From: a virus
IMG/VR virus record: IMGVR_UViG_3300043803_001662
Coordinates: 1 to 38,277 of that record
Reading direction: 5' to 3' (one strand)
Length of the DNA: 38,277 nt
In this document: one piece after another, positions 35,307 through 38,121 of the stretch
Layout: every line of letters starts with the position of its first letter
Position numbering within the stretch: the first letter of the stretch is position 1
Position numbers and translations under genes: made by a program
Notes under the pieces: model-generated
What the model saw: the letters and a program-made list of their open reading frames with translations, nothing else
What the model was told of the DNA's origin: nothing
The model's database searches: none

Positions 35307-35777
35307 CTAAAGTGCAACTGCCGTGCCAATCGGCCAGACATATTCCAGATTGTCTGGCTCGCTCCAGCCGAACTGGCCGTAGTGCGTCGGAAGTTTGCGG
35401 AGCAGGTTGCTTCTGTGCGATGAATGAAACTCATCGCACCCCAGCCACGGCGGCCGGCCGGATTCGTCTTTTCCGAATCGCAGAAGCGTGTTTGCGGCGT
35501 CGTAGAACTGCGGCTGTAGTGTGTCCCTGTAGCCTCTGCGGCGCCACTCGTCGCAGATTGCGACGGCGTACACGCACAGCGAATACTCGTGTCCTTGCCA
35601 CATACGGGTCGCTGGGTGATTCCGCCAACTGCTTGGCTTGTCACGCAGGGGTCCGCCGACCGGGACGCCGAGCGCCTGCAAAATCTGCTTGCACTCGACT
35701 CGCTGCTTGCCGAGCCGGCGGTAGTCCAGGCAGCGGGCCGAGTCGATGAAGTTGTTGTATGGAAGGAAGGTTTGCAC
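35307..35777 (-). CDS. Pyrimidine-dimer DNA glycosylase-like protein (MSMEG_6728 type)
   Basis: 156 residues from the GTG at 35777 with GGAGG about nine bases upstream; longer in-frame extensions run into the previous gene. QTFLPYNNFIDSARCLDYRR, GKQRVECKQIL, WRNHPATRMWQGHE and EWRRRGYRDTL are landmarks of the T4 endonuclease V-related family that excises UV-damaged pyrimidines. The stop codon lies a few bases from a sigma-54-like site for the following gene. Confidence 0.8.
   Translation of the reverse strand: MQTFLPYNNFIDSARCLDYRRLGKQRVECKQILQALGVPVGGPLRDKPSSWRNHPATRMWQGHEYSLCVYAVAICDEWRRRGYRDTLQPQFYDAANTLLRFGKDESGRPPWLGCDEFHSSHRSNLLRKLPTHYGQFGWSEPDNLEYVWPIGTAVAL
35313..35328 (-). promoter_or_regulatory. 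Sigma-54-type promoter
   Basis: Minus strand TGGCACGGCAGTTGCA: both the -24 GG and the -12 GC fit, spacing is exact, and TGGCAC...TTGCA is the consensus. Start of transcription is expected about 12 bases further on, ahead of AGGAG and the ATG at 35280. Confidence 0.7.
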
Positions 35778-35778
35778 G

Positions 35779-36045
35779 TTAGTTGTCCTCCGGGTTGACG
35801 GTCGCCCACTGCGCCACGGCCTGCCAGTCAACGTGCCGCATGAGCGCGCGGCCGACGATCTGCTGAACCAGCGGCGGCGTCTGCAGCATGGTCGGCGCAA
35901 GCGCGTCGATGACGGCACCTCGAATGAAGATGTTCGTTGGCTCGCGCCGCCGGAGCAGCCGCCGCAGTTCGTCCCGATCCTGGGAGCAATCGAGAAACGC
36001 GATAATGTCGCCAGTGAAACTGTCGATGGTGTTTGTGGTGTTCAT
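35779..36045 (-). CDS. Hypothetical protein
   Basis: 88 residues from the ATG at 36045, preceded by AAGGGAGC. Helical (DELRRLLRRREPTNIFIRGAVIDALAP). No motif. A sigma-54-like site lies very close upstream (36064-36079), too close to leave a normal leader. Confidence 0.5.
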   Translation of the reverse strand: MNTTNTIDSFTGDIIAFLDCSQDRDELRRLLRRREPTNIFIRGAVIDALAPTMLQTPPLVQQIVGRALMRHVDWQAVAQWATVNPEDN

Positions 36046-36251
36046 GAGTTTGCTCCCTTGGAGTGCAAGTCCCGTGCCACGATGATTCCAAAACGTCGAC
36101 CCTCGCACTCATGCTCTGACTCGACAACCGACTCGACCTGTTCGGCCGGGATGAATACCTCTTGCGCGTCGGCCGGCGGCTCGCTGCCGAGGATGGCCCA
36201 CACGCCGGTCTCGTCGCGCTTGCGGATCCAGGCTGGCACGATGGTTGTCAT
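36042..36251 (-). CDS. Small hypothetical protein
   Basis: 69 residues from the ATG at 36251 (overlaps the upstream stop). Starts MTTIVPAWIRKRDETGVWAIL. It looks like a compact beta-rich protein. Its last codons contain the sigma-54-like sequence at 36064-36079. Confidence 0.5.
   Translation of the reverse strand: MTTIVPAWIRKRDETGVWAILGSEPPADAQEVFIPAEQVESVVESEHECEGRRFGIIVARDLHSKGANS
36064..36079 (-). promoter_or_regulatory. Sigma-54-type site
   Basis: Minus strand TGGCACGGGACTTGCA, full consensus match. It falls within a coding sequence and only 19 bases from the ATG at 36045, so transcription would begin inside the ribosome binding site. Could be fortuitous or give a leaderless mRNA. Confidence 0.45.
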
Positions 36252-36517
36252 GCGCGGCCCTCCGCTGCGGCTATTGCGGCCACGCATTTTTCGTGAACGG
36301 ATACGCAGTAGTCGATCCATTCTCTGTTGTTTCCTTCCAGCAGTTCGTTTTGCCGTCCGATGAACTCGCCGGCCTCTTTCAGCGCAGAAAGCAACTCCGG
36401 AGCGGCCGCCATCGCCAGCGCGTCATCGTCAGAAAGACCCCTAGCCAGAACTTTCTCGCCGCGCATGATCGAACAAAGTCCGTCCTTTTCTCGATACACG
36501 CTCAGTTCGCTTTTCAT
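36248..36517 (-). CDS. Hypothetical helical protein
   Basis: 89 residues from the ATG at 36517, with AAGGAG nine to ten bases upstream. DDALAMAAAPELLSALKEAGEF resembles short conserved phage helices. No catalytic residues. A sigma-54-like site lies about 60 bases upstream of the start. Confidence 0.5.
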   Translation of the reverse strand: MKSELSVYREKDGLCSIMRGEKVLARGLSDDDALAMAAAPELLSALKEAGEFIGRQNELLEGNNREWIDYCVSVHEKCVAAIAAAEGRA

Positions 36518-36536
36518 CACTCGGGTCTCCTTGTGT

Positions 36537-36890
36537 TCAGCAGGCCAGCACACTCCGGCCCGCAGTCTTGAGAAGTGCAAACGTCGTGCCGTCCGCGTTC
36601 AATCCTCGAAACGTCCAGTGCGGCGCGACGCGAGGGTTGTAGCGCACCAGTTCCCCGGACGCTGCTTCACTCGGACGGGCCTCGACGCTTTCGCACTCGA
36701 TCCAGGCACAAGGGGTTTTGTCCCCGCCACCGTGGATTTTGTTTGCCACAGTCGGGTAGTTCACCAGCCTGCAGCCGCGCAGTTCTAGGTTTGCCGCGGA
36801 CGGGTCTACATAGCGCACCCGCCGCCCGTTTCGGATCTGCCAGTGGCCCTTGTGCGGGCCGTTGCCAAGATGGAAGCGGACGCGGTTCAT
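36537..36890 (-). CDS. Hypothetical protein with a repeat-derived segment
   Basis: 117 residues. Contains RYVDPSAANLE, encoded by the same short element as the right-end array (36790-36808). A Gly-rich part (HGGGDKTPC) and a soluble mixed fold. No family recognised. Its 3' coding end contains the sigma-54-like site at 36576-36591. Confidence 0.5.
   Translation of the reverse strand: MNRVRFHLGNGPHKGHWQIRNGRRVRYVDPSAANLELRGCRLVNYPTVANKIHGGGDKTPCAWIECESVEARPSEAASGELVRYNPRVAPHWTFRGLNADGTTFALLKTAGRSVLAC
36576..36591 (-). promoter_or_regulatory. Sigma-54-type site
   Basis: Minus strand CGGCACGACGTTTGCA, one mismatch at the first base. It lies in the end of one gene, roughly 60 bases before the ATG at 36517. 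Confidence 0.5.
36790..36808 (-). repeat. Intragenic copy of the array element
   Basis: Minus strand TAGACCCGTCCGCGGCAAA, encoding DPSAA within a leftward gene. It matches the array end at 37921-37938 in 16 of 18 positions. Together with the two copies at 33155-33193 it shows that the element is dispersed. Confidence 0.55.
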
Positions 36891-37192
36891 CGCAGCACCG
36901 TCCCGCCGATGGCGCGCACGTCATCATCCGACAGCCGGCCGTGTGTGCAGTCGCCACAATCGTCGGGCTGGCCGCACACAGGGCACAGCGTCATGCCTCG
37001 ATATGTTCGCCCCCAGGCGTCGCAGTCGACCTCGACGGAATACTCGTACGCGCCGGGAAACCGATCTATGTATTCCTGCATGATTCGGCGGGGCGTTTTG
37101 CCGTTTTGCGGAACCACAAATAGCGCGGCATCCTGCGGAGCGGCCGCGTCGATCTGAACCCGAACGGCGATCCACTTGTTGTGCTTACTCAT
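36887..37192 (-). CDS. Small protein with zinc-ribbon end
   Basis: 101 residues from the ATG at 37192, GAGGAG upstream. Mixed fold, then a CPVCGQPDDCGDC cluster at the C-terminal quarter, likely zinc-binding. The following gene begins inside the last codons. Confidence 0.55.
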   Translation of the reverse strand: MSKHNKWIAVRVQIDAAAPQDAALFVVPQNGKTPRRIMQEYIDRFPGAYEYSVEVDCDAWGRTYRGMTLCPVCGQPDDCGDCTHGRLSDDDVRAIGGTVLR

Positions 37193-37568
37193 TGGTAGAC
37201 AACTCCTCGAAAATCCGCTCCGCGTTTTCCGCGTACCACTCGGCCACCTTCTCGTAGATGTAGAAATAGATGGCCGCCATGCCGTCGTTCTCGCGCGGGT
37301 TCTCGCCGACGCCGGCGTTCTCGTAGGCTTCCTCCAGGTCGCGACCGTGGAGAAACCAAGCGGCCTCGATCTCGCCCGCGTAAATCGGCACGGCGCCGTC
37401 CACGATTTCGTGAACCCCGCCGTCGTAGTCCAGGTCGTTGGACAGGCACGGCACGGAGTCTGGCTTGTTGTCCTTGATGTAATCGCGGAGCAGGTCGTTG
37501 ACCTCCTCAAGCGCGGACTCGACGCGATCGGGGAGAACGTCGTCGACTTCAATCGTTCGCTTTGTCAT
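37185..37568 (-). CDS. Phage protein of unknown function behind a sigma-54-type promoter
   Basis: 127 residues, ATG at 37568. GGVHEIVDGAVPIYAGEIEAAWFL and MAAIYFYIYEKVAEWY recall a family of acidic phage proteins of unknown role. Regulation: the sigma-54-like site at 37597-37612 is followed by AAAAGGAGG (37576-37584) and the start codon at the expected distances. Confidence 0.6.
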   Translation of the reverse strand: MTKRTIEVDDVLPDRVESALEEVNDLLRDYIKDNKPDSVPCLSNDLDYDGGVHEIVDGAVPIYAGEIEAAWFLHGRDLEEAYENAGVGENPRENDGMAAIYFYIYEKVAEWYAENAERIFEELSTNE

Positions 37569-37769: not shown

Positions 37770-37803
37770 TTTCGTGTGCCTCCTTTTGGCGAAGGTGAAG
37801 TAG

Positions 37804-37819
37804 TGCAACTGCCGTGCCA
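37804..37819 (-). promoter_or_regulatory. Sigma-54-type promoter of the leftward block
   Basis: Minus strand TGGCACGGCAGTTGCA, identical to the site at 35313. It precedes AAAAGGAGG and the first leftward gene by about 35 bases, and it directly adjoins the tandem array. Confidence 0.7.
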
Positions 37820-37824
37820 AAGGC

Positions 37825-37947
37825 GTCGGGTCCTTGCATCAGACGGGTCCTTGCATCAGACGGGTCCTTGCATCAGACGGGTCCTTGCATCAGACGGGTC
37901 CTTATCACGGACGGGTCCACTTGCGACGGACGGGTCTATATATAGAC
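37825..37947. repeat. Tandem array of a 17-bp element ending in a palindrome
   Basis: Seven units of GACGGGTCCTTGCATCA type: the first has GTCGGG in place of GACGGG, units 2-4 (37842-37892) are identical, and later units diverge (GACGGGTCCTTATCACG, then a 19-base unit). The last runs into GTCTATATATAGAC (37934-37947), a perfect 14-bp palindrome containing TATATATA. There are no spacers. The form resembles origin iterons or an array of protein-binding sites in front of the leftward operon. Confidence 0.85.
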
Positions 37948-37960
37948 GGCCCCTCCTGGC

Positions 37961-38104
37961 CGCCCGCGCCCGCGCCCGCGCCCGCGCCCGCGCCCGCGCC
38001 CGCGCCCGCGCCCGCGCCCGCGCCCGCGCCCGCGCCCGCGCCCGCCCGCGCCCGCGCCCGCGCCCGCCCGCGCCCGCCCGCGCCCGCGCCCGCGCCCGCC
38101 CGCG
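37961..38104. repeat. Hexanucleotide GGGCGC tract
   Basis: About 144 bases of the repeat CCCGCG on the plus strand, regular for the first 80 bases and then interrupted by four-base slips. The minus strand carries GGG every six bases, so it could form G-quadruplexes; the CG-alternating parts could also adopt Z-DNA. It is not a gene: the reading frames through it only give Arg-Ala repeats. Confidence 0.9.
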
Positions 38105-38105
38105 A

Positions 38106-38121
38106 AGCAACCGCCGTGCCG
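38106..38121 (-). promoter_or_regulatory. Sigma-54-type site outside the hexanucleotide tract
   Basis: Minus strand CGGCACGGCGGTTGCT, one mismatch from consensus at the first base. It points leftward into the GGGCGC tract and the array, so transcription from it would run through both before the first leftward gene. Confidence 0.5.

Follow-up and report, generated by a model that had tools for sequence, protein, structure and literature searches.

Predicted sigma-54-type promoters form a conserved battery at the gene boundaries of a phage leftward block

Introduction

Phages usually begin with the main sigma factor of the host or with a polymerase of their own, and sigma-54 requires an activator ATPase. 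The leftward block of the phage studied here raises the question of whether a set of phage genes is placed under host sigma-54 control, as an original prediction made from the DNA letters had proposed. The window, by which we mean the whole stretch of DNA analysed, is an entire IMG/VR virus record of 38,277 bp.

Results

Six sigma-54-type sites lie in the leftward block

We scored the window for TGGCACG-N4-TTGCW, allowing at most one mismatch, and found six sites on the minus strand of the leftward block, three of them perfect (5' ends at 38121, 37819, 37612, 36591, 36079 and 35328). All six sites of the original prediction were thus located where it had placed them and with exact spacing. It had read each of them as TGGCAC-N5-TTGC, which is exact at 35313, 36064, 37597 and 37804; those at 36576 and 38106 start with CGGCAC and carry one mismatch. 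The copies at 35313 and 37804 are identical as had been claimed, over 19 bases (TTGGCACGGCAGTTGCACT) and not 16. The pattern places GG at -25/-24 and GC at -13/-12, as in sigma-54 promoters. The sites are as follows, with +1 counted as 12 nt after the GC.

38106..38121, minus strand: sixth match, CGGCACGGCGGTTGCT; kept in L003 and L102 as well; the nearest gene start lies more than about 250 nt away
37804..37819, minus strand: predicted sigma-54-type promoter 1, TGGCACGGCAGTTGCA; predicted +1 at 37793; start codon at +25; lies in non-coding DNA
37597..37612, minus strand: predicted sigma-54-type promoter 2, TGGCACACGACTTGCA; predicted +1 at 37586; start codon at +19; shares bases with the end of the 58-aa gene
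36576..36591, minus strand: predicted sigma-54-type promoter 3, CGGCACGACGTTTGCA, one mismatch; start codon at +46; within the 3' end of the upstream gene
36064..36079, minus strand: predicted sigma-54-type promoter 4, TGGCACGGGACTTGCA; start codon at +9; Shine-Dalgarno (SD) sequence upstream of the predicted +1
35313..35328, minus strand: predicted sigma-54-type promoter 5, TGGCACGGCAGTTGCA; predicted +1 at 35302; start codon at +23
34484..34499, minus strand: degenerate site, TGGAACAGGAGTTGCA, two mismatches; at the end of the DUF6915 gene

The degenerate site has a counterpart in L004 and L005 with one mismatch and a full leader. The match at 38106 had been proposed as a further promoter; no leftward gene is close enough for it to serve, and its function is doubtful. 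The genes and repeats of the block are listed below.

37961..38099, no strand assigned: GC-rich hexanucleotide repeats that separate the leftward block from the divergent genes, with a unit that varies among relatives
37827..37945, minus strand: 17-bp unit, GGACCCGTCTGATGCAA, repeated in tandem directly upstream of promoter 1; the 4.5 copies at 37827-37903 are perfect and those that follow are degenerate
37593..37769, minus strand: 58-aa gene, downstream of promoter 1
37185..37568, minus strand: 127-aa conserved phage protein, downstream of promoter 2
36248..36517, minus strand: 89-aa gene, downstream of promoter 3
35779..36045, minus strand: 88-aa gene, downstream of promoter 4
35307..35777, minus strand: pyrimidine-dimer DNA glycosylase-like gene (Pyr_excise, PF03013); promoter 5 lies in its 3' end
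34831..35280, minus strand: 149-aa DUF6878 gene, downstream of promoter 5
34462..34827, minus strand: DUF6915 gene (phrog_8143)
32918..33337, minus strand: 139-aa helix-turn-helix (HTH) protein (HTH_17), possibly a regulator, at the end of the leftward block

Searches among annotated phages gave no match for the 637-aa protein or the papain-like protein, and DUF6915 matched only relatives below 60% identity. A csrA-like phage gene lies at 22505-22669 of the window.

The sites exceed chance expectation

With at most one mismatch to TGGCACGNNNNTTGCW, the six sites of the leftward block compare with a mean of 0.03 and a maximum of 1 in 2000 dinucleotide shuffles. When the block was shuffled such that proteins and codon pool were kept, the mean was 0.47 and the maximum 3, and none of 5000 shuffles reached six. 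Allowing two mismatches over the whole window yielded 37 matches against 43 in shuffles and hence no enrichment; we rejected this count as the wrong test, one that shows nothing, and the strength of the signal therefore lies in the near-perfect sites. Three matches occur on the plus strand of the window (13227, 16425 and 17200), and those examined in relatives correspond to a conserved protein motif, G-T-x-x-A, so that we do not regard them as extra promoters.

The battery is conserved among related phages

Searches with the DUF6915 protein recovered close relatives (L001-L007), and searches with the 127-aa protein recovered L102, L105 and L109; every one of them has the battery, between 2 and 7 sites placed in the same block and on its coding strand. 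The pooled blocks of nine phage lineages (46 kb), which are related and hence not nine independent tests, contain 44 sigma-54-like sites on the coding strand, where 0.3 would be expected, and none on the opposite strand; all spacers from 0 to 8 other than N4 sum to only 4 matches on the coding strand. The original prediction was open to the objection that shuffled or unrelated sequence might carry the sites at equal density, and this is not what we found: they are missing from dinucleotide and codon-aware shuffles, from controls with wrong spacers, from the opposite strand and from sister phages similar in composition (see below). In 73 other phages that share the DUF6915 gene alone, we found isolated matches at most.

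Among 32 non-redundant sites, GG (-25/-24), AC (-22/-21) and TGC (-14 to -12) are invariant and the spacer is variable; since the sites were gathered by their likeness to the consensus, this uniformity arises partly by selection, which does not affect the spacer and strand controls. At the position of promoter 1, the first promoter is present in 9/9 lineages, in non-coding DNA where the boxes are kept and the spacers have varied. In G002, G006 and G007 the first T of its TTGC is a G.

The position of the sites relative to genes is equally regular. In 35 of the 44 sites an SD sequence and a start codon follow 20-75 nt after the GC, compared to 19% of random positions, and at nearly all sites ending in TTGCA the start codon lies at +9 to +48, in most cases with the SD sequence in the leader. 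That a ribosome binding site and start codon follow the predicted start at 35313, 37597 and 37804 had been noticed before; this holds and extends to 36576, where the start codon is farther away (+46). At 36064 the leader would be only 8 nt long and the SD sequence would fall outside the transcript, with a full leader at the counterpart in L003. Taken at their predicted starts, about 12 nt after the GC and leading into a translatable leader, most sites fit this geometry.

Promoter 5 is read in frame as IGTAVAL*, the tail of the glycosylase gene upstream. In phages with the site, the glycosylase C-terminus reads YVWP(I/V)GTA(V/L/I)A(L/V), whereas it reads YVWP(A/V)ELVA in L105 and L138, which are without the promoter 5 site, and YVWPV in the more distant L023. 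The GTAVAL* tail is found only where the site exists, and spacer changes alter the amino acids while the boxes stay. Since promoter 5 codes in frame and adds a tail to the glycosylase, we conclude that selection acts on the DNA.

Sister phages carry sigma-70-type promoters in the leftward block

The wider family was recovered with the papain-like gene at 30945-31946 (named by sequence reading; no Pfam match). The leftward blocks of 17 sister phages contain 37 sigma-70-type promoters against 5 expected, together with 2 sigma-54-like sites, whereas the nine battery blocks hold 1 sigma-70-type site against 2.4 expected; the battery block is essentially without a sigma-70 promoter. Related phages thus show opposite promoter classes at one genome position. 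The two sets differ in most of their leftward genes and share only a few near the end of the block, which speaks for a difference of modules and led us to discard the idea that promoters were swapped on the same genes. In a tree of the papain-like gene the battery falls in three places, and this suits an exchange of modules, although recombination of the marker gene may also account for it.

Sister loci (L143-L168 and others) have an oriented element of 15 bp, CCCGANCGTGGAAAC, in about 8-18 copies per leftward block; it lies at gene boundaries, often merges with the SD sequence, and appears to be related to the 17-bp units of the arrays in the sigma-54 group. Similar tandem arrays of the 17-bp type are present in every relative and lineage. 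We had considered the 17-bp array as a specific sigma-54 enhancer and found this unsupported, because sister phages without sigma-54 sites carry similar elements (CCCGANCGTGGAAAC) widely, so that the array is a family-wide element and not enhancer evidence; located beside promoter 1, it is a candidate regulatory site that is not specific to sigma-54. No matching enhancer (UAS) was identified in the battery blocks, and the array lies at promoter 1 only.

The candidate host encodes RpoN and sigma-54 activators

Among approximately 85,000 genomes searched, a close relative of the papain-like protein is encoded by one Planctomycetia MAG contig only. This contig is closest to sister phage L143 and is a sister-phage fragment that could be mis-binned; a search with the 127-aa protein gave no match. 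The phage host is probably a planctomycete, a tentative assignment drawn from this one contig. The candidate host MAG, for which the host link is putative, encodes RpoN and about 7 clear sigma-54 activators, and has five strict sites, including some ahead of groEL, hsp20-like and sulfate-transport-like genes (named by sequence reading). Across 58 genomes of its order we counted 263 strict sites versus 107 for the reversed pattern, and in some cases they precede groEL, dnaK, hsp20 and flagellar-type genes. Sigma-54 control of a chaperone cluster and csrA has been predicted in Planctomycetia (PMC12316311).

The phages themselves gave no match above cut-off to sigma-54 or activator domains (PF04552, PF00158 and PF14532), an absence that is not proof given that the records may be fragments. 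A weak PF04552 match in G456 was dismissed as a phage sigma-54, as it covers 25 residues well under the cut-off and is probably a generic HTH. As neither a sigma-54 nor an activator gene was found in the phages, we infer that the sites would use host RpoN and a host activator.

Oriented sites occur outside the family

Across all of IMG/VR the pattern was found in 113 stretches, roughly chance by our own estimate, but a few loci have several copies. The 46-kb phage record G452 (L336 and L337), in which genes for a portal protein and for RecE-like and Erf-like proteins were identified, has 7 strict sites on one strand, none on the other and no wrong-spacer matches in the 40 kb read. This oriented battery suggests that the arrangement arose more than once. 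G452 is unrelated to the phage family of the window, and three of its sigma-54-like sites lie 26-34 bp apart.

Further clusters were seen elsewhere. Three other viral contigs (L264, L267 and L300) have sigma-54-like sites clustered in tandem, 3-5 to a cluster and spaced by 25-29 bp. G451/G453 (L230 and L288) have 12 TGGCACN5TTGCW sites in about 11 kb, and an attC-like repeat comes after each of the sites read, an arrangement like that of integron cassette arrays.

Discussion

We consider it likely, judging from sequence and geometry, that the genes of the leftward block make up an early or accessory module under a battery of sigma-54-type (-24/-12) promoters at its gene boundaries. The original prediction that the leftward genes are under host sigma-54 control is strengthened at this level by conservation in nine lineages, the geometry of SD sequence and start codon, and the lack of sigma-70 promoters. 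Host RNA polymerase with host RpoN would bind each site as a closed complex, a host enhancer-binding ATPase would open it, and the block would remain off as long as no stress or nutrient activator of the host is active. The gene block thus probably waits on an ATP-driven activator of the host, which is unusual for a phage. Because Planctomycetia, the probable host group, seem to drive chaperone genes from such promoters, a protein-stress signal is a reasonable first guess, by analogy, for the trigger.

Other readings of the sites have to be weighed against this. Common protein motifs such as G-T-x-x-A in a GC-rich genome could encode the site by coincidence, and this accounts for the rightward matches examined in relatives and for internal matches in a VARAL motif; we give it next to no weight otherwise, and for the battery as a whole it is refuted, as codon-preserving shuffles give 0.47 sites where six are seen, the battery sites lie in different frames or outside genes, and one site created a protein tail that is present only where the site is. 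More serious is the proposal that the sites are operators or stoperators of a phage repressor and resemble sigma-54 promoters by accident. The sites are asymmetric and stand in one orientation at gene boundaries, and their orientation and gene-end placement resemble those of mycobacteriophage L5-type stoperators (PMC6550527), which likewise are many; in the sister phages another oriented motif (CCCGANCGTGGAAAC) stands at gene boundaries, stoperators typically switch motif from group to group, and an HTH protein closes the block. However, a repressor site needs neither both sigma-54 boxes at the right spacing nor a varied spacer, and has no reason to keep TT at -15/-14 or to sit so often just before an SD sequence. 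Unlike L5-type stoperators, the phage sites have promoter sequence and geometry, and no cognate repressor is known. Stoperators would also call for another promoter, yet essentially none of sigma-70 type was found, and the sigma-54 group has the other motif as well, as a tandem array, so that the two motifs are not alternatives. Overall, we regard a stoperator function as improbable.

A similarly small chance falls to the possibility that host E-sigma54 does bind the sites, but chiefly to block or silence transcription passing through and not to initiate it. Several sites do lie within the 3' ends of genes, and Salmonella is known to have sigma-54 binding sites inside genes (PMC3844500), but the steady place just upstream of SD sequence and start codon, together with the lack of another promoter, suits initiation.

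As promoters, the sites are like bacterial sigma-54 (RpoN) promoters in their TGGCACG-N4-TTGCW pattern, GG at -25/-24, GC at -13/-12 and usual leader length before the SD sequence, and differ in forming a battery of predicted sites on phage genes. The sigma-54 chaperone regulon predicted in Planctomycetia (PMC12316311) has the same promoter class in the likely host group, on cellular genes there and on phage genes here. In Salmonella, RtcR/RpoN and prophage Gifsy-1 (PMC9879122) also link a phage to a sigma-54 activator, but in that case activation of a host sigma-54 operon requires prophage genes, whereas here the promoters are on the phage. A literature search, with subscription journals mostly outside its coverage, returned no phage with such a sigma-54 battery.

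A wider picture, which we find rather doubtful as a whole and put forward as a possibility, is that several unrelated phage groups have independently put blocks under host sigma-54, that the planctomycete battery taps the chaperone circuit and is on under protein stress, and that sigma-54 and sigma-70 versions of the block are swapped as modules. If the sigma-54 reading is true, a battery that depends on an ATP-driven activator of the host would allow a phage to tie a gene block to a single state of the host cell. The battery would offer a testable handle on when the genes of the block act, and a sequence-only signature for spotting such phages in metagenomes.
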